A stretch of DNA of 64,000 bases, from assembly GCA_031291295.1 (NCBI GenBank), contig JARLJI010000113.1:17328-81327 (forward strand), given 5' to 3'. Positions 7,548-51,386 of the stretch are shown here, piece by piece (the stretch's first letter is position 1; the number at the start of each line of letters is the position of its first letter). The DNA is from Rhodoferax sp. (GTDB taxonomy: Bacteria > Pseudomonadota > Gammaproteobacteria > Burkholderiales > Burkholderiaceae_C). The notes beneath the pieces were generated by a model that was given only the letters and a program-made list of their open reading frames with translations, did not search any database and was not told the DNA's origin. The position numbers were made by a program, and so were the translations under genes.

Positions 7548-7593
7548 ACTCTAAGCGCGCCGGCGCTGCGGCACAGTCCCCCCCGGGCGGTAC
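7548..7593 (-). promoter_or_regulatory. Dyad-box promoter of the 7541 unit
   Basis: On the minus strand the dyad reads GTACCG-CCCGGG-GGGGAC (7593-7576), a degenerate left half and a perfect right half. After exactly 22 bp comes TAGAGT (7553-7548), a good -10. The predicted transcription start falls at the ATG of the hydrolase. Confidence 0.65.
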
Positions 7594-7605
7594 ACCCCAC
7601 CGCGC

Positions 7606-8604
7606 TCAGGGAATCAGCAGGACCGACCCGGTGCTGCGGCCCTGCTCCGCCTCAGCGTGCGCCAGGGCTGCGTCCCTGAGCGGGTAGGTGCGGCTGACCT
7701 CGACCTTCATCGCGCCACTGCGCACCAACTGGAACAGTTCGCCGCAGGCCTCGGCTCGCGTCTCGGGCGTGGCGGCATGGAAGCCGAACCCCGGCCGGTG
7801 CAGCGCCAGGCAGCCCTTCTGCGCCAGCAGCATCAGGTTGAACGGCGGCACGTTGCCCGAGGCGTTGCCGTAGTTCACCACCGCGGCGAAAGGCCTGACG
7901 CAGTCAAACGAGGGCAGGAAGGTGTCCTTGCCGACACCGTCGAACACTGCAGCGACCCCTTCGAGGGCGACCCGCTTAACCGCCGCGACGAAGTCATCCT
8001 GGCGATACAGGATGGTGTGGCGGCAGCCGTGCGCCTGCGCGAAAGCGGCCTTGGCCGGCGAGCCCACGGTGCCGATGACGGTGGCGCCCAGGTGCTGGCA
8101 CCACTGGGCGAGCAGGCTGCCGACGCCGCTGGCGGCGGCATGAATCAGGACCACGTCGCCCGGCTTTGGCCGGTAGCAGCGGTGGATGACGACCGAGGCC
8201 GTCAGCCCCTTGAGCATCATGGCTGCCGCCTGCTGGTCGGAGATGTCGGACGGCAGCTTCACCAGACAGGCGGCCGGCAGGTTGCGCTGCTCCGCGTAGG
8301 CCCCGGTGTCATGGAAGAACAAGCCGCCGGTACCGGCATAGGCGACCCGATCGCCCGGCCGGAACCCCTGGACTTCGGCGCCCACGCTTTCCACCACGCC
8401 GGCGGCCTCGTTGCCGAGGATGACCGGGAACTTCGGCCCATTACCCAGGTAGAAGCCGCCGTTGCGGACGTTGATGTCGGAGAAGTTCAAGCCGATGGCC
8501 GTGTGCCGGACTCTCACTTGCGCCGGCCCGGGCGGCGGCAGCTCGATCTCGATTGGCTCGAGGACTTCGGGTCCCCCGTTGCGGTGAATTGCGATGGCTT
8601 TCAT
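7606..8604 (-). CDS. Zinc-free quinone oxidoreductase (MDR family, QOR-like)
   Basis: 332-aa NADPH-dependent medium-chain reductase. It carries the GroES-like N-terminal domain (GNEAAGVVESVG near residue 67), the NADPH Rossmann motif IHAAASGVGSLLAQW near residue 150 and no structural or catalytic zinc ligands, as expected for QOR. It would reduce quinones or the C=C bond of an enone or enoyl intermediate. It starts 8 bp after the P450 stop and probably shares its promoter at 9845-9890. Two other MDR proteins of this class are encoded at 15899 and 54863. Confidence 0.92.
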   Translation of the reverse strand: MKAIAIHRNGGPEVLEPIEIELPPPGPAQVRVRHTAIGLNFSDINVRNGGFYLGNGPKFPVILGNEAAGVVESVGAEVQGFRPGDRVAYAGTGGLFFHDTGAYAEQRNLPAACLVKLPSDISDQQAAAMMLKGLTASVVIHRCYRPKPGDVVLIHAAASGVGSLLAQWCQHLGATVIGTVGSPAKAAFAQAHGCRHTILYRQDDFVAAVKRVALEGVAAVFDGVGKDTFLPSFDCVRPFAAVVNYGNASGNVPPFNLMLLAQKGCLALHRPGFGFHAATPETRAEACGELFQLVRSGAMKVEVSRTYPLRDAALAHAEAEQGRSTGSVLLIP

Positions 8605-8612
8605 GGAATAGT

Positions 8613-9815
8613 TCAGGCAGGTTCCACCCGCAGCGGCAGCCGGTCCAGCGTGCGCAGGGTGTTGACAGGACGGTAGACTGGCACGCCGGCCAGGGTGATG
8701 GAGCGGGCGCGCCTGGCCAACGCGCCCAGCAGGCACTCGGCCTCGAGCCGGGCGATCATCTGGCCAATGCACACATGCGCGCCGTGGCCGAAGGCCAGCT
8801 GCTGTCCGGCCTGGCGCCGCAGGTCGAACACATGGGCATCGGACCATTTGCGCGGATCGCGATTGGCCGCGCCCATGAAGGCGGCGATCTTGGTGTCGGG
8901 CTCGAGCGCGATGCCGCCGAGTTCGGCGCCCTCGCAGGTGGTGCGGAACATCACCTGCACCGGCGCCTCGAAGCGGATCGCCTCCTCGAAGGCATTGCGC
9001 GTCAGCGCCGGGTCGGCGCGCAGCAGCGCCCACTGCGCCGGGTCGCGCGCCAAGGCTTGCAGCGCGGCGCCGATGCCGCTGATGGTGGTGTCCATGCCGC
9101 CGCGCAGGAACGAGCGGGTCAGGTTGGCGGCGAAGCCCGGCTGCAGCGCGCCCGCGTCCTCGGCCTGGTAGATCAGCTCGCCGAAGCCGCCGGGCAGCAT
9201 GGCCTCGCGCTTCATGCTGTCCTCGTACCACTTCATGTAGGGCTGGGCGCGCGCCGCGGCCGCCTGGGTCAGTTCGTTGTTCGGGCCGATCGCGTTGAAG
9301 TTCATGTCGCCGATGGCCTGGGCGTTCTCACGCGGGATGTGGATGCCCACCGCCGGCGGGAACACCGACAGCACGAAGGCCTCGGCGGCGTCGCGCATGC
9401 CGTCGAATTCGCCCTGCGCCACCAGCGCATCGGCCAGTCTCTCGGCCTCGGCCGCGAAGCGCTCGCGCCATTGCCGCACCACTATCGGCGAGAGAATCTT
9501 CTGCAGCGCCGCGCGCACTTCGGTGTGCTGCGGCGGATCGACCTCCAGGATCACGCTCGCGGGCCGCCAGTTGCCGGGCTTGCGGATGTCCGCCAGGCCG
9601 GCGCCGCCGGTGTTGGTGAAGCGCTGCCACTGCGACAGCACGGTGGCCGTCTCGGCATGGCGGCCGGTCGCATACATGCCGTATTGCTCCAGCCAGACCA
9701 CCGGCCCGGCCTCGCGTAGCGCCTCGAAGAAGGGATACGGGTCGGTCAGGGTCTGGGCCGTGAAGGGATCGATGCCGAGCACGGGCGGCTCGGGCAGCAA
9801 GGCGGCGGCGGTCAT
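8613..9815 (-). CDS. Cytochrome P450 (CYP199-like)
   Basis: Soluble bacterial class I P450, 400 aa, expected to hydroxylate or dealkylate a small substrate with electrons from a [2Fe-2S] ferredoxin. The heme-thiolate loop is FGHGAHVCIGQMIARLE (Cys about 349), the K-helix ExxR is EEAIRFE, and the I-helix oxygen-activation motif is RGGMDTT. The PITE/VILEVDPPQHTEVR region and the ANRDPRKW motif are shared with the P450s at 12354 (broken), 27683, 41882 and 51418, so these five form one paralogous family. From memory the closest characterised group is CYP199 (para-substituted benzoates); substrate remains inferred. It is transcribed divergently from a ferredoxin gene at 9948, its likely redox partner. 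Confidence 0.95.
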   Translation of the reverse strand: MTAAALLPEPPVLGIDPFTAQTLTDPYPFFEALREAGPVVWLEQYGMYATGRHAETATVLSQWQRFTNTGGAGLADIRKPGNWRPASVILEVDPPQHTEVRAALQKILSPIVVRQWRERFAAEAERLADALVAQGEFDGMRDAAEAFVLSVFPPAVGIHIPRENAQAIGDMNFNAIGPNNELTQAAAARAQPYMKWYEDSMKREAMLPGGFGELIYQAEDAGALQPGFAANLTRSFLRGGMDTTISGIGAALQALARDPAQWALLRADPALTRNAFEEAIRFEAPVQVMFRTTCEGAELGGIALEPDTKIAAFMGAANRDPRKWSDAHVFDLRRQAGQQLAFGHGAHVCIGQMIARLEAECLLGALARRARSITLAGVPVYRPVNTLRTLDRLPLRVEPA

Positions 9816-9844
9816 GGGCGGCGCTCCGGAAACAGGATGCGGCG

Positions 9845-9918
9845 AGTGTGCGCCCGACCGGCACGGCCGACCGTCCCCTGACGAGGGGACTGACACCGCG
9901 CCCGCTCCAGCCGACAGT
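9845..9918. promoter_or_regulatory. Bidirectional dyad-box promoter (P450 9815 / ferredoxin 9948)
   Basis: One perfect dyad, GTCCCC-TGACGA-GGGGAC (9873-9890), serves both directions. Rightward, 22 bp later, lies GACAGT (9913-9918) with a -35-like CTGACA starting on the last dyad base. Leftward, 22 bp later, lies CACACT (9850-9845). The exact 22-bp spacing on both sides supports a single symmetrical activator site driving divergent transcription. Confidence 0.75.
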
Positions 9919-9947
9919 GAGGGTGAGCGAACCCCCAAGGAGTCCCC

Positions 9948-10271
9948 ATGACCCAAGCCACCTTCATCTGCGCGGACGGATCGCGCCGCGACGTCGACGT
10001 CTCGATGGGCATCAACCTCATGCGCGCGGCCTGCGACAACGGCATCGAAGGCATCGTCGGCGACTGCGGCGGTGCGATGAGCTGCGCCACCTGCCATGTG
10101 TTCGTCGAGGACGGCTTCGCCGATCGCGTCGGCGCGATGGAGCCCAACGAGAACCAGATCCTCGACTTCACCGCCGCCGGCCGCCAGCCCAACAGTCGGC
10201 TCGCCTGCCAGATTGTGATGAGCGAGGCGCTGCACGGCATCATCGTGCGCATCGCCGACCCGCAAGTCTGA
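9948..10271 (+). CDS. [2Fe-2S] ferredoxin (adrenodoxin/putidaredoxin type)
   Basis: 107-aa one-electron carrier for P450s. The cluster ligands are in CGGAMSCATC (Cys40, Cys46, Cys49) and RLACQIV (Cys87), the C-x5-C-x2-C...C spacing of vertebrate-type ferredoxins. A strong Shine-Dalgarno AAGGAG precedes the ATG. It is divergent from the P450 at 8613 and heads a unit with an SDR, an MFS transporter and a broken P450. A second ferredoxin with the same ligand positions is at 37851. No ferredoxin reductase is encoded in this window. Confidence 0.95.
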   Translation: MTQATFICADGSRRDVDVSMGINLMRAACDNGIEGIVGDCGGAMSCATCHVFVEDGFADRVGAMEPNENQILDFTAAGRQPNSRLACQIVMSEALHGIIVRIADPQV

Positions 10272-10293
10272 TTTCAACTTCCAGGATATCCCC

Positions 10294-11124: not shown

Positions 11125-11134
11125 CGCGACGCGA

Positions 11135-12337: not shown

Positions 12338-12353
12338 GCAGTCACTGAACATC

Positions 12354-13007: not shown

Positions 13008-13080
13008 GGCGCGGGCCGGCCCGACCCGACAGCTTCATAGCAGCGTCCGCACCGGCGGCACGAAGTCTCCCTTGTGTTCT

Positions 13081-13605: not shown

Positions 13606-13634
13606 GGTGGGGCCTCCGTTCTATGACCGTCGTC

Positions 13635-13679
13635 ATGCTAGGACAGCGCCGGGCCCGGGGTAGTCCCCTTCTTGGGGAC
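13635..13679 (-). promoter_or_regulatory. Dyad-box promoter of the VOC gene
   Basis: GTCCCC-AAGAA-GGGGAC on the minus strand (13679-13663; 5-bp instead of 6-bp centre), then 22 bp, then TAGCAT (13640-13635). The leader to the ATG at 13605 is about 23 nt. Confidence 0.7.
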
Positions 13680-14320: not shown

Positions 14321-14342
14321 GGTGTGGTCTCCTGGCGGAACG

Positions 14343-14357
14343 GTCCCTTGTGGGGAC
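14343..14357. promoter_or_regulatory. Compressed orphan copy of the dyad box
   Basis: GTCCCT-TGT-GGGGAC, with a 3-bp instead of 6-bp centre, 22 nt upstream of the start of the broken PPC gene. No -10-like hexamer stands at 22 bp on either side, so it may be a degenerate site. Just upstream (14363-14380) is the hairpin CGCCC...GGGCG, possibly ending the 14449 gene. Confidence 0.4.
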
Positions 14358-14448: not shown

Positions 14449-15081
14449 TCAGTCGCCCACGCCCAGCAGCTGCCGCGGGTAGCGGCAGGCTTGCAACTCG
14501 TCGAGCAGGGCGCACGCGAAGTCGCCATACGAAATGCAGCTGCGGCCCGCCTCATCGGCCACCAGCGCATCGACGGCTGTGCGGTAGCGGCCGCTGCGCG
14601 CGCCGGGCCCGATCTGCGCGGCCGGCGCGACGCAGGTCCAGTCGAGGTCAGCGGCGCGACGCAGGACCGCAATCGCATCCGCGTGGGCCTTGACCTTGGG
14701 CATCAGGGCCGCCGGAAAGCCCGGCGTGTCGGCCAGCCGCACGCCCGGTGCGACCTCCAGGATTCCGGCGCCGCCGACCAGCAGCACGCGCCGGACTGCC
14801 GCCTGGCGCGCCGCACTCACCACCGAAGCGGCCACCGCGGGCAACAGCTGAAGGGCGCCCGCCGGCGCGCCATAGGCGCTGACGATGGCGTCGCAGCCGC
14901 GCACGGCACGGGCCAGGTCCAGCGAATCGAAGATGTCCACCGCGCCAGCGGCCCTGGCGAGCGCTGACGGGCCAAGCGCGTTCGGGCGCAACAGCGCAAT
15001 GACTTCGTGGCCGCGATCCTGCGCCTCCTGCGCGATCGGGCGGCCGACCTTGCCGCCGGCCCCGATGATGGCGATCTTCAA
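14449..15081 (-). CDS. NAD(P)-binding oxidoreductase (NmrA/YwnB-like atypical SDR)
   Basis: 210-aa Rossmann protein beginning MKIAIIGAGGKVGRPIAQEA, an atypical/extended SDR glycine motif (GAGGKVG). There is no YxxxK pair in the usual place, so it may be a redox sensor or a reductase of the flavin-reductase-like group rather than a classical dehydrogenase. Its ATG overlaps the stop of the NIPSNAP gene at 15078 (ATGA), so the two are translationally coupled. Role in the pathway unknown. Confidence 0.85.
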   Translation of the reverse strand: MKIAIIGAGGKVGRPIAQEAQDRGHEVIALLRPNALGPSALARAAGAVDIFDSLDLARAVRGCDAIVSAYGAPAGALQLLPAVAASVVSAARQAAVRRVLLVGGAGILEVAPGVRLADTPGFPAALMPKVKAHADAIAVLRRAADLDWTCVAPAAQIGPGARSGRYRTAVDALVADEAGRSCISYGDFACALLDELQACRYPRQLLGVGD

Positions 15082-15818: not shown

Positions 15819-15891
15819 ACGATAGCGACCTGCCGCGCGTTGTCTGTCCCATCCGAGGGGGGCATACGCGGCGCGTGGCGCTGCCTATGCT
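15819..15891. promoter_or_regulatory. Bidirectional dyad-box promoter (NIPSNAP 15788 / MDR 15899)
   Basis: Single dyad GTCCCA-TCCGAG-GGGGGC (15846-15863). Rightward, CATACG as -35 and TATGCT (15886-15891) as -10 at 22 bp; the predicted start of transcription coincides with the ATG at 15899. Leftward, CAGACA as -35 and TATCGT (15824-15819) at 21 bp. Confidence 0.7.
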
Positions 15892-15898
15892 GACGGAC

Positions 15899-16849
15899 AT
15901 GAAAGCCATTGTTTCCACTCCCGAAGGCGCGCGGCTGGCCGATGTGCCGGTCCCGCAGCCCCAGGCCCATGAAATCCTGGTGCGCGTGAAGGCGGCCAGC
16001 CTGAACCGGGCCGACCTCGCGGGCCTGGCCGCCAAAGACGGCAAGGTGATCGGCATGGAATGGGCCGGTGAAGTGGTGGAGGCCGGCGCGCAGGTCACGG
16101 CGCTGAAGCCGGGCGACCGCGTCATGTGCACCGGCGCCGGCGCGTATGCCGAGTACGCCGTCACCGACGGCGGCCGCGCCTGCCGGATTCCCGATGCGGC
16201 GCTGCCCTATGAAGAGGCCACGGTCCTGACCCTGGCGCTGCAGGCCATGCACGACGCGCTGGTCACGCAAGGGCGATTCAAGCGCGGCAATGCCGTGCTG
16301 ATTCATGGGGCCAGCTCCGGCGTCGGGCTGATGGGCCTGCAGATCGCGCGCCTGCTGGGCGCGCGCCAAGTGATCGGCACGTCCACCCACGCCGCCCGGC
16401 GGGCGCGGCTGGCGGAGTTCGGCGCCGACCTGGCGATCGACCCCGGCCAGCCCGGCTGGCACGAGCGCATCCTGGAAGCCACGGGCGGCAAGGGCGTCGA
16501 AGTCATCGTGGACCAGGTCACCGGCAAGCAGTTCGCGCAGACCATGCAGACCGCGGCTATCGGCGGACACATCGTCAACCTCGGCCGCCTCGGCGGCGCC
16601 GGCGGCGAGTTCGACTTCCAGCTCCACGCGCTGCGGCGCCTGAGCTACATCGGCGTCACCTTCCGCACCCGTTCGGTGGACGAGATCCGGGTGCTGAACA
16701 CGCTCATGCTGACGGACCTGGGGCAGGCCGTTGCCGAGCGCCGGCTGCGCCTGCCGATCGACAGCAGCTACCCACTGGCCGACGCCGGCACGGCGCTGGC
16801 GCGCATGAGCGCCAACCAGCATTTCGGCAAAATCGTCCTGACCATCTAG
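15899..16849 (+). CDS. Zinc-binding-dehydrogenase family protein, QOR-like MDR
   Basis: 316-aa MDR protein: N-terminal MKAIVSTPEGARLADVPVPQ, GMEWAGEVVEAG near residue 55, NADPH motif IHGASSGVGLMGLQIA near 140. No zinc ligands, so quinone-oxidoreductase-like. The ATG was chosen because the sequence starts with the canonical MKAI; an in-frame ATG 12 nt upstream lies inside the predicted promoter. No Shine-Dalgarno fits between the -10 and the ATG, so the mRNA is probably leaderless. The flavodoxin-like gene follows after 47 bp. Confidence 0.9.
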   Translation: MKAIVSTPEGARLADVPVPQPQAHEILVRVKAASLNRADLAGLAAKDGKVIGMEWAGEVVEAGAQVTALKPGDRVMCTGAGAYAEYAVTDGGRACRIPDAALPYEEATVLTLALQAMHDALVTQGRFKRGNAVLIHGASSGVGLMGLQIARLLGARQVIGTSTHAARRARLAEFGADLAIDPGQPGWHERILEATGGKGVEVIVDQVTGKQFAQTMQTAAIGGHIVNLGRLGGAGGEFDFQLHALRRLSYIGVTFRTRSVDEIRVLNTLMLTDLGQAVAERRLRLPIDSSYPLADAGTALARMSANQHFGKIVLTI

Positions 16850-17578: not shown

Positions 17579-18418
17579 ATGGGCCAGAACCGCGAACCTG
17601 AGACGACGAGCGAAGACAACGGCGACAATGACGCCGGCGGCGTAAAGGCCGTGGACACCGCGGTGCGCGTGCTGTCGGCGCTGATTGACATGGGCGCGCC
17701 GCTGATGCTCAAGACCGTGGCCGAACGCGCCGAGATGCAGCCGCCCAAGGCCCATCGCTACCTGGTGAGTTTCTGCCGCAGCGGCCTGGCCGAACGCGAC
17801 GCCGCCAGCGGCGGCTACCGGTTGGGCCCGCTGGCCGTGCGGCTGGGGCTGGCGGCGCTGCGTCATCTCAACGTGGTCGCGGTCACCGCACCCGCCCTAG
17901 GCCTGCTGCGCGACGAACTCGGCTTCACGGTCGGCCTCGCGGTGTGGGGTGGGGCCGGGCCGACGTTCGTGCGCTTCGAGGAAACCAACGACGCGCTCAT
18001 CATCAGCGGGCGCCCCGGGTCGGTCATGCCTATGCTCACATCTTCCACCGGCCGCGTGTTCGGCGCCTACCTGCCGCGGTGCATCACCGAGCCCTACATC
18101 CGCAAGGAACTGGCCGGCACGCTGCACCCCGGGGCGAGCCCAACCAACGGGGCGAAGGCAGCCGGCAAGATGAGCATCGAGGACGTGGAAGCGATGTTCG
18201 CCGAGGTGCGTCAGCACAAGCTCGCGCAGGTCAAGGGCGACGTCAATCCCGGCCTGCACGGCCTGTCGGCACCGCTGTTCGACCACACCGGCGCCATCGT
18301 CGGTGTGATGACCGTGATGGGCTCGGCCGGCCTGATCGACACACGGCTCAACGGCCCCGTCGCACTGGGGTTGGCGGCCCGGGCAGAGGAGGTCTCCCAT
18401 CGCATGGGCTGGGCCTGA
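17579..18418 (+). CDS. IclR family transcriptional regulator
   Basis: 279-aa regulator with an N-terminal winged helix (AVDTAVRVLSALIDMG, then QPPKAHRYLVSFCRSGLAERD) and a C-terminal IclR effector domain (LAVWGGAGPTFVRFEET, GHGLSAPLFDHTG-like region at about residue 235). The ATG 17579 is supported by AAGGAGG 6 nt upstream. IclR proteins usually sense aromatic acids or CoA-pathway intermediates. It carries no dyad box and precedes the LuxR-type gene; it might control that gene through the palindrome at 18463-18479. Confidence 0.92.
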   Translation: MGQNREPETTSEDNGDNDAGGVKAVDTAVRVLSALIDMGAPLMLKTVAERAEMQPPKAHRYLVSFCRSGLAERDAASGGYRLGPLAVRLGLAALRHLNVVAVTAPALGLLRDELGFTVGLAVWGGAGPTFVRFEETNDALIISGRPGSVMPMLTSSTGRVFGAYLPRCITEPYIRKELAGTLHPGASPTNGAKAAGKMSIEDVEAMFAEVRQHKLAQVKGDVNPGLHGLSAPLFDHTGAIVGVMTVMGSAGLIDTRLNGPVALGLAARAEEVSHRMGWA

Positions 18419-18572: not shown

Positions 18573-19436
18573 ATGATGACCGTGATGATTCAGGACCCCG
18601 TGGCCCCGGGCAGCACCCCGAGCAATTCGCTGACGCAGCTGGTGGAATCCATCGGCCACGACCGCTTCGGCCCGGCCCTGGCCCATTACCTCCACCACCT
18701 GTGCGGCGCGGACCACTTCGCGGCGTTCCGGCTCGGTCCGGACGACCTGAGGGAAGTCGCCGCGTGCTGCGTCAAGCCAGAGCACACCGCACGTGATCGG
18801 GTCGAGCGCTATGTCGGCGGGTGGTGGAAGCGCGATCCAGCCATGAACGAAGCGCAGCGCTGCCTGCAGGGGCCAGCACTCAGCAGCGTCATCCATGTGG
18901 ACTTCAGCGACGACGGTGATACCGACCTGCGCATGCGCGTCTATCCAGACGTGCGCGACCGCATCCTGCTGTGCGGCCGCAGCGCCAACGCCGCCTTCGG
19001 GCTGAGCGTGTTGCGCTCTGACCCGCACTCCCCGTTCGCCGGCGACGCCATCGCAAAACTGGGCCAATGCGCCGACCTGCTGGTGGCAATGCTAGGCAAG
19101 CATGCCGACGTCTGCCAGAGCCGGCCCAACGCGGCGCAGTCGCTCACCGAGCTGCCGGACATCGAAAGCTGCATCACCGCCACCAGCGACCTGCCGCGGC
19201 GAGAGGCCCAAGTCTGCGCGCGCATCCTGTACGGGCTGTCATCCGTCGGTATCGCGCTGGACCTGTCGGTGAGCGAGGAAACCGTCAAGACCTATCGCAA
19301 GCGCGCCTATCAGCGGCTGACCATCGGCTGCGAACGGGAACTGCTGACCTGGTACCTGGCACGCTGGAGCCCCTGGATCAGCCGGCGCTTCGAACCGCTG
19401 GCCGCATCGGCAGCCGCTCCCACAGCGTTGCACTAA
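18573..19436 (+). CDS. LuxR-type helix-turn-helix transcriptional regulator, candidate master activator of the island
   Basis: 287-aa regulator. The last ~70 residues form a LuxR/GerE DNA-binding domain: LPRREAQVCARILYGLSS, then SVSEETVKTYRKRAYQRL (recognition helix). The N-terminal ~200 residues look like a GAF/autoinducer-like sensor but lack the clear tryptophan/tyrosine set of AHL binders, so the ligand is unknown. The ATG 18573 has AGGAG 8 nt upstream; in-frame ATGs at 18486 and 18543 are less well supported. The dyad box centred near -43 at most promoters here is the position of lux boxes, which makes this protein the best candidate to bind them. A GCCGGC/GCCGGC hairpin at 19444-19459 follows the stop. 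Confidence 0.92.
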   Translation: MMTVMIQDPVAPGSTPSNSLTQLVESIGHDRFGPALAHYLHHLCGADHFAAFRLGPDDLREVAACCVKPEHTARDRVERYVGGWWKRDPAMNEAQRCLQGPALSSVIHVDFSDDGDTDLRMRVYPDVRDRILLCGRSANAAFGLSVLRSDPHSPFAGDAIAKLGQCADLLVAMLGKHADVCQSRPNAAQSLTELPDIESCITATSDLPRREAQVCARILYGLSSVGIALDLSVSEETVKTYRKRAYQRLTIGCERELLTWYLARWSPWISRRFEPLAASAAAPTALH

Positions 19437-19726: not shown

Positions 19727-19744
19727 GTCCCCCAACGCGGGGAC
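19727..19744. promoter_or_regulatory. Dyad box upstream of the hemerythrin gene
   Basis: GTCCCC-CAACGC-GGGGAC, perfect halves, followed by the -35-like CTGACC. At the usual 22 bp the hexamer is CCCAAT, a poor -10; AATAGA at 19770-19775 is a possible substitute. On the other strand the hexamer is TGAACG, facing the MFS remnant. Confidence 0.55.
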
Positions 19745-19795
19745 TGACCACCCGGCAAGGCGATGCCCCAATAGAGGCATGCTTACATCCCATTC

Positions 19796-24869: not shown

Positions 24870-25759
24870 GCCCGCTGCACCCGCATGGCTGCGGTGGGCT
24901 GGCCGAAGATGCCGGTCGGCCGCACGACGATAACGACGAACAGGGCCAGGAACACGATCGCCTCGGAAACCCCCGACGAGATGTAGGCGATGCTCAGCGT
25001 CTGCACCAGCCCGATCGCCAGCCCGGCAATCAGAGCCCCGGGAATGCTGCCCAGGCCGCCGAGAATGATGATGACAAAGGCGCGCAACAACAGCGGCTCG
25101 CCCATCGCGAAGTGGACCGAGTTGAACACCAGGCCGATTAGCACGCCCGCCATGCCGGCCAGAGCGCCCGAAATGAAAAACACCTGCATGTTGACCGGGC
25201 CCGGGTTGATGCCCAGCAGGCGCGACGTCTGCTCGGAATAGGCGACAGCGCGGATGCGCTGACCGAAGCCGGTACGGTACAGGTAGAACATCAGCGCCAT
25301 CACCAGCACGATCACCAGCCCGACGATCACCAGTTGCAGCAGCTGGATGCGCAAGTCAAAGACGTTGAAGACGACCACCGGGAAGGCGCCGAACGGAAAA
25401 CGCATGATGGCGGTGTTGGAAACCTGCTGCGCCAGGGCCAGCAGGATCAGGTTGGCGCCGATGGACGAAACGATGGCGGAGAACTCGGACGCGCCGCGCC
25501 GCCGCAACGGGCGAAAAGCGAAGAGGTCCAATGCCACCGAGACCAGCCCGCCGGCCACCATGCCCGCCATCAGGGCCACCACGATCGGCGCATCCAGCAC
25601 GTTGACGGCATACAGCCCCGCGAAGGCGCCCCACATGAACACGGAGCCGTGGGCCATGTTCAAAATATGGTTGACGCCGAACAGCAGCGTGAAACCGAGC
25701 GCAAACAGGCCATAGACGCTGCCCACGACAATTCCGTTGAGTATTTGTTGCATTAGCAT
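24866..25759 (-). CDS. ABC transporter permease, LivH-type
   Basis: 297-aa membrane permease with the LivH N-terminus QQILNGIVVGSVYGLFALGF and NHILNMAHGSVFMWGAF. Two ATGs, at 25759 and 25753, are in frame; the first lies about 12 nt from the start of the -10 hexamer TATCCT (25771-25766), so the mRNA is probably leaderless. First gene of LIV transporter 1; no substrate-binding protein is encoded in this unit, so one of those at 30387 or 49453 may serve it. Confidence 0.93.
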   Translation of the reverse strand: MLMQQILNGIVVGSVYGLFALGFTLLFGVNHILNMAHGSVFMWGAFAGLYAVNVLDAPIVVALMAGMVAGGLVSVALDLFAFRPLRRRGASEFSAIVSSIGANLILLALAQQVSNTAIMRFPFGAFPVVVFNVFDLRIQLLQLVIVGLVIVLVMALMFYLYRTGFGQRIRAVAYSEQTSRLLGINPGPVNMQVFFISGALAGMAGVLIGLVFNSVHFAMGEPLLLRAFVIIILGGLGSIPGALIAGLAIGLVQTLSIAYISSGVSEAIVFLALFVVIVVRPTGIFGQPTAAMRVQRA

Positions 25760-25765
25760 AGTGGC

Positions 25766-25811
25766 AGGATAGGAGGCCAACGTTTTCCGGTCAGTCCCCC
25801 TGCCCGGGGAC
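25766..25811 (-). promoter_or_regulatory. Dyad-box promoter of LIV transporter 1
   Basis: Minus strand: GTCCCC-GGGCAG-GGGGAC (25811-25794), -35-like CTGACC, 22 bp, then TATCCT (25771-25766). It stands back to back with the box at 25824, centres 30 bp apart. Confidence 0.78.
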
Positions 25812-25823: not shown

Positions 25824-25869
25824 GTCCCGGGGCAGGGGGACTGACGGACCTGACGCCCGTGGCTAGTCT
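25824..25869 (+). promoter_or_regulatory. Dyad-box promoter of the P450 unit at 25911
   Basis: GTCCCG-GGGCAG-GGGGAC (25824-25841), -35-like CTGACG, 22 bp, then TAGTCT (25864-25869). Confidence 0.78.
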
Positions 25870-30285: not shown

Positions 30286-30331
30286 GTCCCCGGAGAAGGG
30301 GACAGACGCGCTGAAAGGCGCTCTGGATACT
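30286..30331 (+). promoter_or_regulatory. Dyad-box promoter of the binding protein at 30387
   Basis: GTCCCC-GGAGAA-GGGGAC (30286-30303), -35-like CAGACG, 22 bp, then GATACT (30326-30331). Leader about 49 nt with a good AGGAG before the ATG. Confidence 0.75.
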
Positions 30332-35916: not shown

Positions 35917-36705
35917 TCAGGTGTCGGGATGGGCGTCGACCCAGCACTGCACCAGCGCGTCGCTGATGTAGGCGCTACTGGTCTGACCGCCGTCGACGGC
36001 CAGCACCTGGCCGGTCACAAAACCGGCATCGTCGCTGCACAGGAAGGCCGCGGCGCCCGCGATCTCTTCGGGCTTGCCCGGCCGGCCCATCGGAGTGGTG
36101 CCGACGATGGTGGCGTAGAAGCGCGCCGTGTTCAGGCGGCCCGCCGTCTGCGGCGTGGCGATGATGCCCGGCGCGATCGCGTTGACCCGGATGCCCCGGT
36201 CCGCATAGTCGGCGGCCAGGTTGCGAGTCAGGCCGATCACACCGGCCTTCGCCATCGAGTACACGGCCTGCCTGCGATAGCCGACTACGCCCAGCGTGGA
36301 GGCGATGTTGAGCACCACGCCCCTGGCCTTGATTAGCTCCGGCAGGGCCGCGCGCGTGATGATGAAGGTGGTCTTGAGGTTAATGTCCAGCCACTTCTGG
36401 TAGTCGGCGTCGGAGGTCTCGTGGAACGGCGGGCAATTGCCCAGCCCCGCGTTGTTGACCAGCACCCGCACGCCGCCGAAGTGGCCGATGCAGGCCTGCA
36501 CGATACGCGCCGGCGCGTCGTCGGCCGTGACGTCCTGCATCAGCGTTCGCAGCGTGTCCGAGGCGGGCAGCGATGCCAGCGACTCGGCATGGATGTCCAC
36601 CGCCAACACCTTTGCGCCCTCTTCGTGCAGACGCAGCGCGATGGCGCGGCCGATTCCCGAGCCCGCGGCGGTGACGATGACGGACCGACCCTCGAAGCGA
36701 TTCAT
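35917..36705 (-). CDS. SDR family oxidoreductase (tandem copy B)
   Basis: 262-aa SDR. The glycine motif is TAAGSGIGRAIALRL (Ala in place of Gly in TGxxxGIG's second position), then NNAGLGNCPPFHETSDAD, NIASTLGVVGY and YSMAKAGV. It ends with VQCWVDAHPDT. Tandem duplicate of copy A. ATG overlaps the stop of the DUF3237 gene (ATGA). Confidence 0.93.
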   Translation of the reverse strand: MNRFEGRSVIVTAAGSGIGRAIALRLHEEGAKVLAVDIHAESLASLPASDTLRTLMQDVTADDAPARIVQACIGHFGGVRVLVNNAGLGNCPPFHETSDADYQKWLDINLKTTFIITRAALPELIKARGVVLNIASTLGVVGYRRQAVYSMAKAGVIGLTRNLAADYADRGIRVNAIAPGIIATPQTAGRLNTARFYATIVGTTPMGRPGKPEEIAGAAAFLCSDDAGFVTGQVLAVDGGQTSSAYISDALVQCWVDAHPDT

Positions 36706-37169
36706 GCGACCTCCCAGATGTCGTAGACCGGGCCATCCGGCTCGCGTGTGCCGGTGCCGATGGCGACCCGGTCGTTGAGCCACTTCAGCGCCGGCGCCGC
36801 GGTCTCGAACTGCACCAGCACCCGGAAGTAGTCCGCACCCTTGGGGATGGGCTCGCGGTTGACGATCTTCTGCATGATCTCGGGCGTGGGGCCGTTGCGC
36901 CGGCCGTTGTAGGTCATGTAGACCAGTTCGCCGGCGTTGGTTTCCAGCACCAGGCGCACGTCCAGGTGCAGGCCGCCATCGGGCCGCTCCAGCACCACGT
37001 CGGCGCCGCCCGGCAGCACCCGGCCGCGCAGGCGCTCGCCCTCGAAGCGGCCGCCGGCCACGCACATCACGCGGCGGGTGTAGCCATGCGGCACGGCGCC
37101 CACCAGCTGCGCCGGCGCGTCCACGTCGGCCTTGATAGTGAACAGGGGCTTGAGTTCGATCGGGGTCAT
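36702..37169 (-). CDS. DUF3237 family protein
   Basis: 155-aa protein of the DUF3237 family: FTIKADVDAPAQLVGAVPHG at the start, GRFEGERLRGRVLPGGAD, DVRLVLETNAGELVYM, and YFRVLVQFETAAPALKWLND. Biochemical role unknown; the family is often found beside P450 and aromatic-degradation genes. A paralogue at 50850 has its own dyad promoter. Confidence 0.85.
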   Translation of the reverse strand: MTPIELKPLFTIKADVDAPAQLVGAVPHGYTRRVMCVAGGRFEGERLRGRVLPGGADVVLERPDGGLHLDVRLVLETNAGELVYMTYNGRRNGPTPEIMQKIVNREPIPKGADYFRVLVQFETAAPALKWLNDRVAIGTGTREPDGPVYDIWEVA

Positions 37170-38208: not shown

Positions 38209-38253
38209 AATGTCGGCCAGGGGTCGCGCCGCGTCAGTCCCCATTGGGGGGAC
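38209..38253 (-). promoter_or_regulatory. Dyad-box promoter of the ferredoxin-led unit
   Basis: Minus strand: GTCCCC-CCAAT-GGGGAC (38253-38237; 5-bp centre), -35-like CTGACG, 22 bp, then GACATT (38214-38209). The dyad lies 1 bp from the stop of the permease gene at 38255. Confidence 0.72.
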
Positions 38254-40170: not shown

Positions 40171-40183
40171 GGATGCGGTTCCT

Positions 40184-41732: not shown

Positions 41733-41778
41733 AGTATTCGCTGGCGCGAGCTGCTCGTCTGTCCCCTGCCGGTGGTAC
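41733..41778 (-). promoter_or_regulatory. Dyad-box promoter of LIV transporter 2
   Basis: Minus strand: GTACCA-CCGGCA-GGGGAC (41778-41761), -35-like CAGACG, 22 bp, then AATACT (41738-41733). The left half is degenerate in the same way as at 7576 (GTACCn). Paired with the box at 41802, starts 41 bp apart. Confidence 0.72.
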
Positions 41779-41801: not shown

Positions 41802-41847
41802 GTCCCTTGCGATGGGGACTGACGCCGGAGCGGTCGCTGCCTACAGT
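41802..41847 (+). promoter_or_regulatory. Dyad-box promoter of the P450 unit at 41882
   Basis: GTCCCT-TGCGAT-GGGGAC (41802-41819), -35-like CTGACG, 22 bp, then TACAGT (41842-41847). Leader about 28 nt. Confidence 0.77.
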
Positions 41848-43111: not shown

Positions 43112-44809
43112 ATGATCGAAACAGACATCGTGGTCATCGGCAGCGGCGCGGCCGGCCTTACCGCGGCCATCACTGCCTGCAAGCTGGGGCTGGAAGCGCT
43201 GGTGGTCGAAAAGACCGGTCACTTCGGCGGCACCACCGCCTACTCCGGCGGCGCGCCCTGGATTCCCTGCAACCACGTCATGAAGCAGATCGGCCTGGAC
43301 GATTCGCGCGAGGCGGCCGATCGCTACCTGCGCGCCGTGCTCGGCGAGGCCTACCGCGAAGAGCTGGTGCAGCAGTACCTGGACAATGCGCCGCGGATGC
43401 TGCAGTTCCTGGAGAGCAATTCGCAGGTTCGCTTCAAGCCCTTCCCGCTGCCCGACTACGAATCCGAGCTGCCCGGCGCAGCGCGCTGCCGCTCGCTGCT
43501 GACGCCAGAATTCGACGGCCGCCTGCTGGGCAAACGGCTGGCCGAGCTGCGTCAGCCACTGCCGCAGCTGATGCTGTTCGGCAGCATGCAGATCGAGGGC
43601 GCCGACATCCACCCGATGCGTCACGCCCTCAAGACCTGGGCCGGCTTCAAGCACACAGCCAAGGTGATGCGCCGCTTCGTGCTGGACAAGTTGCGCTACG
43701 GCCGCGGCACCCGGCTGGTCAACGGTAACGCGCTGGCGGCGCGGCTGTTCCACTCCGCCATCGAGGCCGGCGTGACGTTGTGGAAGAACACGCCGGCGCT
43801 GGAGCTGGTGATCGAAAACGGCGCGGTGCGCGGCGTGGTGGTTGAGCAGGACGGCAAGCGCGTCACCGTGAAAGCCCGGCGCGGCGTGCTGCTCGCCACC
43901 GGCGGCTTCGGCGCCAACGAGAAGATGCGAGCGAAATACATCCCCACGCCCGAGCATCACTACTCGCTGCAGCCCGAAGGCAACGTGGGTGACGGCATCC
44001 GCATCGGCCTGGCCGCCGGGGCGGTGCACGACCCTGTGCATGCCGGTGACTGCATCTGGACGCCGGTCTCCGTGCTGCGCAAGCCGGACGGCAGTATCGT
44101 GAAGTACCCGCACATCTTCATCGACCGGGCCATGCCCGGCTGCATCGTCGTGGACCCGGGCGGCAAGCGCTTCGTCAACGAAGGCGCCTCTTACCAGACT
44201 TTCGTGGGCACCATGCACCAGCGCGGCCTGACCACGGTACACCTGATCGCCAACCGCGACTTCCTGCGCAAGTATGGGCTGGGACTGGCCCGGCCGGCGC
44301 CCTTTAGCGAACGCGCCTATGTGGAATCCGGCTACCTGATCGAGGCAGCCACGCTGGCCGAGCTGGCAGCGCGCATCGGTGTCGATGCGCGCCAGCTGGA
44401 AACCACGGTGCGCCGCTTCAACGAGGGCGCGCTGCGCGGCGAGGACCTGGAATTCGGCAAGGGCGCCGACGCCCATTCGAAGTTCCGCGGCGACCAGACC
44501 CACCAGCCCAACCCCAGCCTCGGGCCGATCGGCGACGGTCCTTACTACGCCGTCGCGCTGCACCCGGGCGACCTGAGCACCGTCGGCGGCCTGGACACCA
44601 ACGGCAGCGCGCAAGTGCTGGCGGCCGACGGCACGCCAATCCAGGGGCTGTATGCCGCAGGGCTGGACATGAATTCAATGATGCGCGGCCGCTACCCCGG
44701 CGGCGGCTCCAGCATCGGCCCGGCCATGACCTTCGGCTACATCGCCGCGCGCCACATGGCACCGGGCACGGTCAGGGCCGACCAGCACGAACTGGAGGTG
44801 GCAGCATGA
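43112..44809 (+). CDS. FAD-dependent dehydrogenase (KstD/fumarate reductase-like)
   Basis: 565-aa flavoprotein. FAD motif VVIGSGAAGLTAAITACKLG near residue 7, then FGGTTAYSGGAPWIP as in 3-ketosteroid delta1-dehydrogenases, VLLATGGFGANEKMR and the C-terminal YPGGGSSIGPAMTFGYIAAR. It would introduce or remove a C=C bond next to a ketone. Substrate need not be a steroid. The stop overlaps the next SDR start (ATGA). Confidence 0.92.
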   Translation: MIETDIVVIGSGAAGLTAAITACKLGLEALVVEKTGHFGGTTAYSGGAPWIPCNHVMKQIGLDDSREAADRYLRAVLGEAYREELVQQYLDNAPRMLQFLESNSQVRFKPFPLPDYESELPGAARCRSLLTPEFDGRLLGKRLAELRQPLPQLMLFGSMQIEGADIHPMRHALKTWAGFKHTAKVMRRFVLDKLRYGRGTRLVNGNALAARLFHSAIEAGVTLWKNTPALELVIENGAVRGVVVEQDGKRVTVKARRGVLLATGGFGANEKMRAKYIPTPEHHYSLQPEGNVGDGIRIGLAAGAVHDPVHAGDCIWTPVSVLRKPDGSIVKYPHIFIDRAMPGCIVVDPGGKRFVNEGASYQTFVGTMHQRGLTTVHLIANRDFLRKYGLGLARPAPFSERAYVESGYLIEAATLAELAARIGVDARQLETTVRRFNEGALRGEDLEFGKGADAHSKFRGDQTHQPNPSLGPIGDGPYYAVALHPGDLSTVGGLDTNGSAQVLAADGTPIQGLYAAGLDMNSMMRGRYPGGGSSIGPAMTFGYIAARHMAPGTVRADQHELEVAA

Positions 44810-45639: not shown

Positions 45640-45665
45640 CTCTTTTCAACACCTAGGCATCACCC

Positions 45666-46397: not shown

Positions 46398-46410
46398 CCG
46401 AAGTTCCGCG

Positions 46411-48399: not shown

Positions 48400-49121
48400 T
48401 CGACTTTCATTACGTACCCACGGGCAACAACCTCAAGATCGCGATCGCGCTGGAAGAACTGGGCCTGACCTACCGGCTGGTCAAGTACGACATGTACGCC
48501 GGCACCCATCTCACGCCCGAATTCCGCCAAATCAACCCGAACAGCAAGTTGCCGGCCATCGTCGACAGCGAGCCTGCCGACGCGGGTGAACCGCTGGCCG
48601 TGTTCGAGTCAGGGGCTATTCTTCTGTACCTCACCGAGAAAACGGGCAGGCTTCTGCCGGCGGAATGGCGCCGCCGGCAAGAGGCCCAGCAATGGCTGGT
48701 CTGGCAGGTGGCCGGCCTCGGCCCCATGTTCGGGCAGGCGAACCACTTCGTGCGCTACGCTCCGGCAGGCCAAGACTATGCGGTCGAACGCTACCTGCGC
48801 GAGGCCAGGCGGTTGCTCGAAGTGCTGGACCGCAGGTTGCGCGGCAGGGATTATCTTGCCGACGAATACAGCATCTCCGACATCGCCTGTTATCCGTGGG
48901 TATCCGGCACGCGCGGCATCGGCATCGAAGTGGCAGGGATGCCTTCCCTTGCAGCCTGGATCGAGCGCATCCGCGCGCGCCCCGCTGTCGAGCGGGCCGT
49001 CGCAGCAATCATGGACGCCGATCGGTCGAAGTACATACAAACGCGGCCCAGCCTCACGCCGCAGGAATGGTCAAACCTCTTCGGCGACCGTTTGCTCGCG
49101 GCCGCCAGGGATGAACAGTAA
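48396..49121 (+). CDS. Glutathione S-transferase family protein (YfcG/YghU-like)
   Basis: 241-aa GST. N-terminal thioredoxin-like domain with PTGNNLKIAIALEELG, NPNSKLPAIVD (cis-Pro region) and FESGAILLYLTEKTG; alpha-helical C-terminal domain with EYSISDIACYPWVSG. It could remove glutathione from, or isomerise, a reactive intermediate or act as a disulfide reductase. Last gene of the unit from 41882. Confidence 0.92.
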   Translation: MIDFHYVPTGNNLKIAIALEELGLTYRLVKYDMYAGTHLTPEFRQINPNSKLPAIVDSEPADAGEPLAVFESGAILLYLTEKTGRLLPAEWRRRQEAQQWLVWQVAGLGPMFGQANHFVRYAPAGQDYAVERYLREARRLLEVLDRRLRGRDYLADEYSISDIACYPWVSGTRGIGIEVAGMPSLAAWIERIRARPAVERAVAAIMDADRSKYIQTRPSLTPQEWSNLFGDRLLAAARDEQ

Positions 49122-49180
49122 GTATCGTTTGGGCCCCAGAAATTGCGGCAGCCGTCCGTCGCGATGCTGGCGCGAAGTCG

Positions 49181-49215
49181 AACGCAACGCGGATCGGATG
49201 ATCCGCGATTGCGTT
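49181..49215. repeat. 15-bp stem hairpin of unknown role
   Basis: AACGCAA-CGCGGATC, loop GGAT, then GATCCGCG-A-TTGCGTT: 15 paired bases with one bulged A. No T-run follows, so it is not a classical intrinsic terminator; it may stabilise or end the GST transcript or be a REP-like element. Confidence 0.7.
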
Positions 49216-49407
49216 TCCGGTAGGTGGCTGCGTTCATCGGGATAGGGGCCAAGCATCGCTGACCGGGCCCCTCCCACACCGCCCGATCGGCTCGCAGCTT
49301 CGCTCCACGCTTCCGCTCCGCGATCAGTCGCCCTCTCGCAATTGCGCTTCGCTTGCGTATCGCTGTGATCAACTCGCGGGAGGACTTGCACCTTGGGCGC
49401 ACAAGAA

Positions 49408-49429
49408 AAAGGCCGCTTTCGCGGCCTTT
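49408..49429 (-). terminator. Intrinsic terminator of the binding-protein gene
   Basis: On the minus strand GGCCGC-GAAA-GCGGCC followed by TTTTTC, 25-45 bp after the stop of the gene at 49453. The stem can also act in the plus direction (followed by TTT). Confidence 0.85.
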
Positions 49430-49452
49430 CCATTTATCGGCGCGGTCGCGTT

Positions 49453-50664
49453 TCAGCGCTCGACGGTGATCAGCTCGGACATCGGCACCCAGCTCTTGCC
49501 GTCGAACTTCACCAGCCTCGCCTGGCGGATCGGGTAGTAGTCGTCGGGCCGGTAGTTCACCGTCATGCCAGGCAGCAGCATGCCCAGCTCCACGTCCTTC
49601 AGCGTCGTGACCTGCTTGAGCAGGTTCTCGCGCGTCAGGTTGTCGCCACATCGCGCGAGCGCCAGCGCCGCCAGCTTCGCGCCCATGTAGGTGTACACCG
49701 AGGTCGTGTCGCCCGGATTGTCGTCGGGCAGGTATTTCTTGAAGAAGGCCAGATAGTCCTGCACGGCCTTGTCGTCTTTCCAGCGCGGGTCAAAGGGCGA
49801 CTTGAACCAGGCCGAGGAAACCAGCCCTGTCGAGTTGTCCAGGCCGGCCGGCGTCAATACGCCGCTGATCGAGCTGGAGACGTAGGCAACGACGAAGAAC
49901 GGCTTCCAGCCGATCGCGCCGACCTTGCGGATGGCTTGCGCGCCCGCTTTGTTGGAGGTGAAGACCATCAGCGTGTCGGCGCCGGAGGCGTGCAATTGCA
50001 GGATCTGCGAGTCCACCGTCGGATCGGAGACCTCCGCACTCGCTTCCTTCACGATCATCTGGTCGGCCTTGGGGCCGAGCGCCTCACGGAAGCCCTTGAT
50101 GTAGGACTTTCCCACGTCGTCGTTCTGGTACAGCACAGCGATCTTGGCGTTTGGGCGGTTCTGCAATAAGTACTTGCCGTAGATGCTGCCTTCGATGTTG
50201 TAGGCGAAGGAGAAGGGCACGGTCCATGGCGTGGCCTTGGCATCGTGCAGACCAGGGCTGGAGGCATAGAACAGCAACTGCGGCACCTTCCTCGCATTCA
50301 GGTATTTCTGCACCGAGGTCTGGGCCGCGGTGCCCATGGAATTGACCATGGCAAGCACGTGCTCGCTTTCCACAAGCTTGCGCGTCGCTTCGACGGTCTT
50401 GGGGGGGCTGTAGGCGTCGTCCAGCGACAGCAGATTGATCTTGCGCCCGTTGATGCCGCCCTGGGTCTCGTTGAGCATCTTGAAGTAGGCCACCGACATG
50501 CGGCCGACCATGGAATAGGCCGAACCGGGGCCACTGTAGGCCACGGTCTGGCCGAGCTTGATCTCGGTGTCGGTGACGCCGGGGCCGTAGTTCTTCTGGG
50601 CGTGCGCCGGCAGTGCCGTGGCGATGGCAGCGCCTGCCAGCAGGCCGATGAGGGAAGAGCGCAT
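49453..50664 (-). CDS. LIV-type ABC transporter substrate-binding protein
   Basis: 403-aa periplasmic binding protein. Signal peptide MRSSLIGLLAGAAIATALPA with cleavage after AHA, then GVTDTEIKLGQTVAYSGPGS, the Peripla_BP_6 start. Start ATG 50664 has AGGAG; the frame continues upstream but the signal peptide fixes it here. Single-gene unit with its own dyad promoter and terminator. Shares the fold but little close sequence with the protein at 30387. Confidence 0.93.
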   Translation of the reverse strand: MRSSLIGLLAGAAIATALPAHAQKNYGPGVTDTEIKLGQTVAYSGPGSAYSMVGRMSVAYFKMLNETQGGINGRKINLLSLDDAYSPPKTVEATRKLVESEHVLAMVNSMGTAAQTSVQKYLNARKVPQLLFYASSPGLHDAKATPWTVPFSFAYNIEGSIYGKYLLQNRPNAKIAVLYQNDDVGKSYIKGFREALGPKADQMIVKEASAEVSDPTVDSQILQLHASGADTLMVFTSNKAGAQAIRKVGAIGWKPFFVVAYVSSSISGVLTPAGLDNSTGLVSSAWFKSPFDPRWKDDKAVQDYLAFFKKYLPDDNPGDTTSVYTYMGAKLAALALARCGDNLTRENLLKQVTTLKDVELGMLLPGMTVNYRPDDYYPIRQARLVKFDGKSWVPMSELITVER

Positions 50665-50725
50665 GAAGTCTCCTGGGGTTGTACGGGGTGAATGTTCCGG
50701 CGCGGTCCGCTCCGGATACAACGCA

Positions 50726-50771
50726 AGTAAACCAAGCGGCGCGGTCCGCGTCTGTCCCTATATGGCGTGAC
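50726..50771 (-). promoter_or_regulatory. Dyad-box promoter of the binding protein at 50664
   Basis: Minus strand: GTCACG-CCATAT-AGGGAC (50771-50754), the most degenerate of the set, -35-like CAGACG, 22 bp, then TTTACT (50731-50726). Confidence 0.65.
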
Positions 50772-50794
50772 AGGGTTTGCCCTTGTGCCGCCAA

Positions 50795-50840
50795 GCCCCC
50801 TCCGCAGGGGACATACGTTGCGCACCGCGGCTCCTAGAGT
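50795..50840 (+). promoter_or_regulatory. Dyad-box promoter of the DUF3237 gene at 50850
   Basis: GCCCCC-TCCGCA-GGGGAC (50795-50812), -35-like CATACG, 22 bp, then TAGAGT (50835-50840). Transcription should begin within a few bases of the ATG. Confidence 0.72.
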
Positions 50841-50849
50841 CCTTTGTCC

Positions 50850-51317
50850 ATGGACACCATCAATGTACGGTCGCTAATGACGATGACGGCCTGGGCAGAC
50901 ACCAGTACGGCCAACCACATCGGAAACGTACCTGCAGGCTATGCTCGGCGCGTCACCTTTGTGACCGGCGGCACCTTCGAAGGCGAGCGGCTGCGCGGCC
51001 GCGTGCTGCCCGCCGGTGGCGACTTCCTCATCCTGCGACCCGACGGCGCGATGCACTTGGACGTGCGTCTGGTGCTGGAAACCGACCAAGGCGAGCTGAT
51101 CTACATAACCTACGTGGGCCGCCGCTACGCGCCGCCCGAGGTCATGGCCAGGTACGTCGGCTCCGAAGCTGTCGATGCAGACGCGGAATACTTCCGCACG
51201 CTTGTGCAGTTCGAATGCGCTTCACCGCGCCTGCTGTGGCTGAACAACCTAATGGCTGTGGGCTTCGGCAGTCGCAGCGCCAGCGGCGTGACTTACCGGA
51301 TCGTCGAGATTCTTTGA
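50850..51317 (+). CDS. DUF3237 family protein
   Basis: 155-aa paralogue of the protein at 36702: GGTFEGERLRGRVLPAGGDF, DVRLVLETDQGELIYITYVG, YFRTLVQFECASPRLLWLNN. The ATG 50850 gives an N-terminus that lines up with the paralogue. It lies about 3 nt after the predicted transcription start and has no Shine-Dalgarno, so probably leaderless. Function unknown. Confidence 0.83.
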   Translation: MDTINVRSLMTMTAWADTSTANHIGNVPAGYARRVTFVTGGTFEGERLRGRVLPAGGDFLILRPDGAMHLDVRLVLETDQGELIYITYVGRRYAPPEVMARYVGSEAVDADAEYFRTLVQFECASPRLLWLNNLMAVGFGSRSASGVTYRIVEIL

Positions 51318-51340
51318 TCAGCCGGAGTCTAGCCGCCCGG

Positions 51341-51386
51341 GTCCCCGCAGCAGGGGACATACGCGGGGGGTGCGATCGCCTAAATT
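51341..51386 (+). promoter_or_regulatory. Dyad-box promoter of the P450 unit at 51418
   Basis: GTCCCC-GCAGCA-GGGGAC (51341-51358), -35-like CATACG, 22 bp, then TAAATT (51381-51386). Leader about 25 nt with GAGGAG. It begins 24 bp after the DUF3237 stop, so this small gene and the P450 unit have separate promoters. Confidence 0.8.

Follow-up and report, generated by a model that had tools for sequence, protein, structure and literature searches.

Quorum-sensing activators of the LuxR/TraR type bind lux boxes, inverted repeats of 18–20 bp that overlap the −35 element and are centred at about −42.5. Two other LuxR-type regulators are of interest here: TeiR, which regulates steroid degradation in Comamonas testosteroni, and PimM, a PAS-LuxR regulator with the operator CTVGGGAWWTCCCBAG. 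A catabolic gene island of Rhodoferax sp. appears to hold a system of comparable build. The stretch analysed, hereafter the window, comprises 64,000 nt of the 81,327-bp contig 13, from an assembly of 4.9 Mb; its recurring element is the dyad GTCCCC-N6-GGGGAC. As judged from sequence comparison, this dyad likely binds a LuxR-type activator as a dimer, the best candidate being the product of the gene at 18573–19436, and lies a fixed 22 bp before the −10 hexamer of nearly every operon of the island.

With the LuxR/TraR activators the island protein (P0003) shares the GerE helix-turn-helix and a predicted N-terminal fold like that of VqsR, TraR, QscR and RhlR; the dyad centre, placed at −43.5, is close to that of the lux box, but the half-site is different and the sites head catabolic operons. 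TeiR, likened here by its description, is likewise a LuxR-type regulator of a catabolic system in the Burkholderiales. Regulators of the PimM type also use a GerE helix-turn-helix on a G-rich palindrome near −35, but their half-sites face the other way with another spacing, their genes are Streptomyces biosynthesis genes, and P0003 is without a PAS domain by Pfam. CrbR of the gammaproteobacteria is described as a LuxR-family activator for acetate use that needs an imperfect inverted repeat, the ACTU motif, which like the present dyad was found by comparative motif search; the matches given there, such as TACTACCATCGTCGAAT, are unlike the island dyad, and the genes are others (PMC5715377). Among the best-ranked matches in open-licence papers, no account of GTCCCC-N6-GGGGAC was found.

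A sequence-only reading of this DNA had listed 15 copies of the dyad, all upstream of genes and each exactly 22 bp from a −10 hexamer. When both strands were read, 13 of the 15 proved to have a −10-like hexamer exactly 22 bp past the promoter-side half, and the mean −10 score of 17 site/direction pairs (14343 included) peaked at +3.2 for offset 22, no other offset between 0 and 55 scoring above −1.8. Fourteen copies are kept. The candidate at 14343–14357 was rejected, having a gap of only 3 bp and no hexamer at 22 bp on either side, and for it the placement upstream of genes also fails, whereas the other listed sites head transcription units. The copy at 19727 stays despite its weak hexamer CCCAAT, which is conserved, its counterparts in the orthologous sites of L012, L013, L015 and L022 reading GCCAAT or GTCAAT (L-numbers denote comparison loci or stretches, L001 being contig 13 upstream of the window, and G-numbers comparison genomes). 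At 13663 and 38237 the gap is 5 bp, yet the 22-bp spacing is kept; the reverse promoter of 15846 has TATCGT at 21 bp. The mismatches of the one-directional window sites (n = 12) fall mostly in the half away from the promoter, nine against one in the near half. By our own gene calls, with inferred operon limits, the dyads head 16 transcription units with 52 genes, where about 45 had been given earlier; two more dyad-headed units lie just outside the window.

Five exact and three one-mismatch dyads lie in the window, as against 0.03 of each expected (mean of 30 second-order Markov simulations) and 0.07 for the two classes together, and all eight are intergenic in a region (821–55846) of which about 6% is intergenic DNA. 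Dyads with exactly two mismatches number 10, four of them intergenic, versus 2.6 in the simulations. The enrichment vanishes when up to three mismatches are allowed (61 in the window, 58.6 expected), and the weakest listed copy, at 50754, is therefore believed only for its hexamer and its place. Enrichment of the motif at the island had been set beforehand as a test: 22 dyads with at most one mismatch were found in the whole genome, ten of them on contig 13, which holds 1.7% of the bases, and six of the seven exact dyads are on this contig. Of the ten, those at contig positions 14930 and 15141 are located upstream of the window and precede an ABC substrate-binding protein and a ferredoxin-reductase-like flavoprotein. 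The 12 off-contig dyads are about as many as a reversed control gives genome-wide (10), and none of three off-island dyads that were read has a hexamer at 22 bp.

The spacing was then followed in 42 dyads, each with no more than one mismatch, that come from L001 and the loci of close relatives. Of these 42 sites, 32 have NANNNT at 22 bp, and no more than seven have it at any other offset from 8 to 45; thirteen more such dyads, from remote, chance or control loci, were kept out of the set and have the hexamer in two cases. Among 44 one-directional sites outside the window the mismatches again number 33 in the far half versus 12 in the near half. The sequence-only reading had also placed a −35-like hexamer on the last base of the dyad, and this is borne out: NNAC follows the dyad directly on the promoter side of 25 of 36 outside promoters and on the opposite side of seven, an asymmetry that makes it a promoter element and not a part of the dyad. 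The −35 hexamers themselves are poor, CTGACG, CAGACG or CATACG in most. With +1 set 7 nt past the −10 hexamer, the dyad spans −52 to −35 with its centre at −43.5, and thus has the placement of a class II lux box, an inverted repeat at a fixed distance that overlaps the −35, with 22 bp to the −10.

One island-wide regulon under one activator bound at about −43, as the earlier reading proposed, is thus the best reading of the sites, activation being suggested by the geometry. A LuxR-type dimer would cover about −52 to −35 (centre about −43.5) and abut the poor −35 hexamer; its N-terminal domain would bind a small molecule, a pathway substrate or intermediate being the probable one, and the ligand-bound dimer would then recruit the sigma-70 polymerase. 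In this way the 16 units and their 52 genes, including six P450s, their redox partners, CoA ligases, short-chain dehydrogenases/reductases (SDRs) and two ABC importers, would be switched on together, and so would a third importer and the ferredoxin-reductase-like flavoprotein just outside the window. Activation by polymerase contact is proposed because the spacing is rigid, the −35 is poor and the near half is better kept.

The sequence-only reading had left the regulator unnamed. The island encodes two regulators, an IclR-family protein (17579–18418, forward strand; Pfam IclR_C and HTH_IclR), which is the conserved neighbour of the LuxR-type gene and a rival candidate for binding the dyad, and the likely activator P0003, a LuxR-type protein of 287 aa (18573–19436, forward strand). 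P0003 belongs to the LuxR (GerE) family by its helix-turn-helix at residues 207–256 (PF00196, 35.6 bits versus a cut-off of 23.5). No autoinducer-binding domain was found in it by Pfam even at E ≤ 1, the matching models being GerE and sigma-70 region 4 only. In its predicted structure (mean pLDDT 81, pTM 0.60), however, the N-terminal domain matched in Foldseek the ligand domain of VqsR (E 1.4e-7) and also TraR, QscR and RhlR (TMq 0.34–0.45), so that the model has the ligand-domain fold of LuxR receptors. No LuxI autoinducer synthase family was found by the Pfam scans, which covered 60 of the 65 called genes of the window.

Relatives of P0003 that are 38–79% identical occur in 11 genomes, mostly of Burkholderiales, together with Bradyrhizobium and a gammaproteobacterial metagenome-assembled genome, and further ones on one Variovorax and two Sphingobium plasmids; none was found in viral contigs. 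The dyads recur together with the orthologs in Variovorax, Caenimonas, Ramlibacter, Rhodoferax and on a Sphingobium plasmid, where the relative (46% identical) is accompanied by two intergenic dyads of one mismatch each, whose hexamers at 22 bp are TAGTTT and TACCAA. At orthologous sites the hexamers are conserved along with the dyads. The 11 genomes hold 36 exact dyads, and 17 of these lie within 40 kb of the family gene on the same contig; both exact dyads of G302 are on a contig without a family gene. In 12 of 20 stretches fetched around exact dyads, which overlap the 17 in part, an ortholog of a window gene (63–88% identical) follows directly behind the site. In Ramlibacter terrae (L019:9103–9914) the IclR neighbour is fragmented and there is no dyad with at most one mismatch near the LuxR-type gene; the system may be decaying there. 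A 32%-identical paralog in Variovorax sp. WS11 (L038:2060–2899) has a perfect GTCCCC-N6-GGGGAC dyad 12 bp downstream.

As background, at least one exact copy was found in 25 of the 299 genomes examined from elsewhere in the order and in 92 of 398 other genomes of the taxonomic family. The island's own genome has seven and none of the others more than three; the family genomes have one or two each except G353, a carrier of the LuxR-type ortholog, and G372, which have three, those of G372 on three contigs. One form, GTCCCC-GATGTC-GGGGAC, recurs in many genomes and is a source of false hits, the copy at L055:2772–2789 lying inside a coding region without a −10. A Thermincola locus (L026:11185–11244) holds two near-perfect GTCCCC-type dyads 42 bp apart, without a −10 at 22 bp, and its protein matches the LuxR-type regulator in the helix-turn-helix only.

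A search of 399 genomes of the taxonomic family with a 15-row profile found relatives in 106. Thirty-two loci of the regulator family were tested, 31 belonging to remote relatives (27–30% identity in the six for which it was determined) and L065 to a close ortholog; a good −10 at 22 bp accompanies 19 dyads of the form GTCnnn-N6-nnnGAC, spread over 18 of these loci, with 0–3 at other offsets and 0.1 in simulations. The commonest dyad of the remote relatives is GTCATC-N6-GATGAC, and this sister dyad, or one near it, occurs with the same 22-bp spacing at L066, L067, L070–L075, L077, L080–L082, L084, L086–L091 and L093. The pattern GTCATC-N6-GATGAC-N22-TANNCT has 31 matches in 30 of the 399 genomes and none in the reversed control; 30 of the 31 are within 2 kb of a family gene and 29 within 164 bp. 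The pattern itself had been read from 16 of these 31 sites, and 14 of the 15 new ones also adjoin a family gene; only the one on contig 3 of G622 does not. Where the downstream gene was read, at 15 loci, it was DUF3237-like in ten, and all ten, which follow the sister dyad, proved to be DUF3237; at two other loci it looks like an extracytoplasmic solute-binding protein. No open-licence paper was found that links GTCATC/GATGAC, or DUF3237, to LuxR. The regulator of the island is thus likely to belong to an undescribed family of LuxR-type activators of catabolism that share an operator frame and differ in their half-sites. When any −10-linked 18-bp dyad near the gene was sought at 15 further family loci, scattered candidates were obtained, and one at L030, GTCACCCGGTCGGGTGGC, with TAGAGT at 22 bp, possibly fits the frame GTC-nnn-N6-nnn-GAC. 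A one-residue specificity code, relating the TYR-x-RA of the helix to the inner triplet, was suggested by the comparison but is not claimed, since L091 has K with GTCATC.

Several observations weigh against the LuxR-type protein as the activator at these sites. In the genomes of the family the reversed control is of similar frequency to the dyad and reaches four in some single genomes, so that the count per genome is weak alone and the case is carried by clustering and spacing. Many of the compared sites are mutually orthologous and are not independent events. Five of the 36 exact dyads in the relative-bearing genomes are a recurrent sequence centred on GATGTC/GACATC, of which the one fetched copy (L055) is inside a coding region. 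No exact dyad lies near the LuxR-type copy in G306 (59% identical), G308 (47%) or G310 (38%), and the two dyads that G310 has elsewhere are followed by TATGAT/TATGCT at 21, not 22 bp. Among the 32 family loci 14 are without a dyad having a good −10, and neither known dyad pattern was seen at L030–L035. The dyad also abuts the −35, where a bound dimer would exclude the polymerase, which would suit the operator of a repressor (LuxR-type, IclR or other) that keeps an ordinary sigma-70 promoter shut in the absence of the substrate. An exact 22 bp, however, would not be required by a repressor, the −35 hexamers are poor and the near half is the better kept, and LuxR-type proteins at such a position are mostly activators; repression of this kind is considered quite unlikely.

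The IclR protein encoded at 17579–18418 might itself bind the dyad and activate, leaving the LuxR-type protein another role. Some IclR proteins are catabolic activators, and this gene adjoins that of P0003 in the window, as its counterpart does in nine loci of close orthologs (L012–L018, L022, L028); it is fragmented in L019, where no dyad with at most one mismatch is found, and in L043 another IclR-like protein (33%) is encoded a few kb from a dyad. Yet the dyad does not track IclR: L020, L029 and L050 hold dyads with no IclR match at E ≤ 1e-10 in the 18, 31 and 4.6 kb fetched, the dyads remain in L017, where the IclR match is split over two frames, and the sister dyad goes with the LuxR family in 30 of 31 cases. 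Activation by the IclR protein in place of P0003 is therefore unlikely, while joint control by the two proteins may occur, their genes being adjacent in the close orthologs. A regulator encoded outside the island could also bind the dyad, with the LuxR-type gene as a mere passenger; regulators need not be linked to their sites, and related genomes hold some exact dyads on contigs that lack a family gene. Against this, the dyads cluster with the family gene across genera and the sister dyads stand within 164 bp of the relatives' genes in 29 of 31 cases, which makes an outside regulator highly improbable.

The promoters have a further property downstream of the −10. Among 44 one-directional outside promoters (dyad with at most two mismatches, NANNNT at 22 bp), the distance from the −10 to an ATG that opens a reading frame of at least 80 codons is 5 nt in 3 cases, 6 nt in 17 and 7 nt in 2 (22/44), and in a stricter set with GTG also counted a start codon is so placed in 15 of 36. 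Three of the 16 listed promoters of the window have such an ATG, those of 7576 (7541–7553), 15846 in the forward direction (15886–15901) and 25794 (25757–25771); outside the window, close start codons were noted in L039, L040, L042, L046, L047, L049 and L051. Because the start codon sits where transcription should begin, the mRNAs of several dyad promoters, under one activator, are predicted to be leaderless. Leaderless transcripts are reported in Burkholderia cenocepacia, where the primary start coincides with the annotated start of 72 genes and 24 of the leaderless transcripts are tRNAs (PMC4603805), and in Cupriavidus metallidurans, where they make up 4.67% of the primary starts (PMC7563307). 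By these figures, a promoter set of which half is leaderless would be unusually high.

The units headed by the dyads are as follows. The dyad at 7576–7593 (reverse strand, two mismatches in the far half; −10 TAGAGT 7548–7553, ATG 6 nt after) heads five genes (7541–821) for a hydrolase, CoA ligases, a major facilitator superfamily (MFS) protein and a thiolase, and is conserved in L013, L018 and L022. A perfect two-directional dyad at 9873–9890, with −10 GACAGT at 9913–9918 (forward) and CACACT at 9845–9850 (reverse), heads ferredoxin-SDR-MFS genes on the forward strand and P450-alcohol dehydrogenase (ADH) genes on the reverse; dyad and both hexamers are conserved in L022. The 5-bp-gap dyad at 13663–13679 (reverse; TAGCAT 13635–13640) precedes a VOC/glyoxalase gene (13605–13081). 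The two-directional dyad at 15846–15863 has TATGCT at 15886–15891 (forward, 22 bp, ATG 7 nt after) and TATCGT at 15819–15824 (reverse, 21 bp), heading ADH-FMN reductase genes and a NIPSNAP unit, respectively, and its 18-mer GTCCCATCCGAGGGGGGC is identical in L014 and L022. The perfect dyad at 19727–19744 (forward; weak CCCAAT 19767–19772), which lies shortly after the LuxR-type gene, heads genes for a hemerythrin and an FAD monooxygenase and is conserved in L012, L013, L015 and L022.

Between the next two units lie a perfect dyad at 25794–25811 (reverse; TATCCT 25766–25771, ATG 6 nt after), heading an ABC transporter (25759–22444), and one with a single far-half mismatch at 25824–25841 (forward; TAGTCT 25864–25869), heading a P450-SnoaL-P450-NIPSNAP unit. 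The perfect dyad at 30286–30303 (forward; GATACT 30326–30331) heads an ABC substrate-binding protein and an SDR; a dyad also precedes the ortholog of the 25794 gene in L039, L046, L047 and L051 and that of the 30286 gene in L039, L046 and L047. An eight-gene unit (38174–32295) follows the 5-bp-gap dyad at 38237–38253 (reverse; GACATT 38209–38214). The second ABC transporter (41688–38255) is headed by 41761–41778 (reverse, two far-half mismatches; AATACT 41733–41738), while 41802–41819 (forward, one far-half mismatch; TACAGT 41842–41847) heads a P450, a KstD-like flavoprotein, SDRs, an old yellow enzyme (OYE)-like reductase and a GST. The weak dyad at 50754–50771 (reverse, three mismatches; TTTACT 50726–50731) precedes an ABC substrate-binding protein (50664–49453), and that at 50795–50812 (forward, one far-half mismatch; TAGAGT 50835–50840, ATG 9 nt after) a DUF3237 gene. 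Lastly, the perfect dyad at 51341–51358 (forward; TAAATT 51381–51386) heads genes for a P450, a CoA-transferase, an HMGL-like protein and an ADH, and a dyad stands before the ortholog of the gene it heads in L041, L048 and L052.

By Pfam, in scans of 60 of the 65 called genes, the island encodes six P450s, two ferredoxins, acyl-CoA ligases, a thiolase, MFS and many SDRs, in addition to two branched-chain-type ABC importers (a third lies just upstream of the window), two DUF3237 proteins (36702–37169 and 50850–51317), three NIPSNAP proteins, SnoaL, an OYE-like reductase, a CoA-transferase and an HMGL-like lyase. When solved structures were searched for matches to three of these six P450s, CYP199A4 and its kin came out best for all three; the flavoprotein at 43112–44809 matches 3-oxosteroid 1-dehydrogenase, and the product of 46411–48399 matches 2,4-dienoyl-CoA reductase. 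The P450 and flavoprotein matches do not fix a substrate. The flank upstream of the island has a GC content of 0.59 versus 0.68 in the island and carries TrwC-type relaxase, RepB primase-like and D5-type genes (L001:2677–6753), and at E ≤ 1e-20 no family gene was found in the other five sampled genomes of this genus. A mobile element or plasmid probably carries the island, though contig 13 may have been mis-binned.

A catabolic system of about 50 genes without assigned control thereby gains a likely regulator, an operator and a promoter geometry, and the dyad rule finds further operons of the same system elsewhere, as in the 12 of 20 fetched stretches. Beyond the island, the balance of the comparisons leans towards a large, undescribed family of catabolic activators of the LuxR fold, in which a rigid frame GTC-nnn-N6-nnn-GAC would stand 22 bp before the −10, the target being changed only by the inner triplet (CCC, CTC, ATC, perhaps ACC) and the recognition helix, and in which the frame would often run on to a leaderless start codon, so that operator, promoter and ATG form one fixed module. 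The dyad promoter itself offers an inducible, possibly leaderless expression module. The sister frame in 30 of 399 genomes makes the recognition-helix specificity of LuxR-type proteins testable by simple swaps, and DUF3237, a family of unknown function, is tied to a LuxR-type regulator family, which gives a lead to its function. If the wider family is real, its modules could be recognised directly in genome sequence, and many unannotated pathways would gain regulons.

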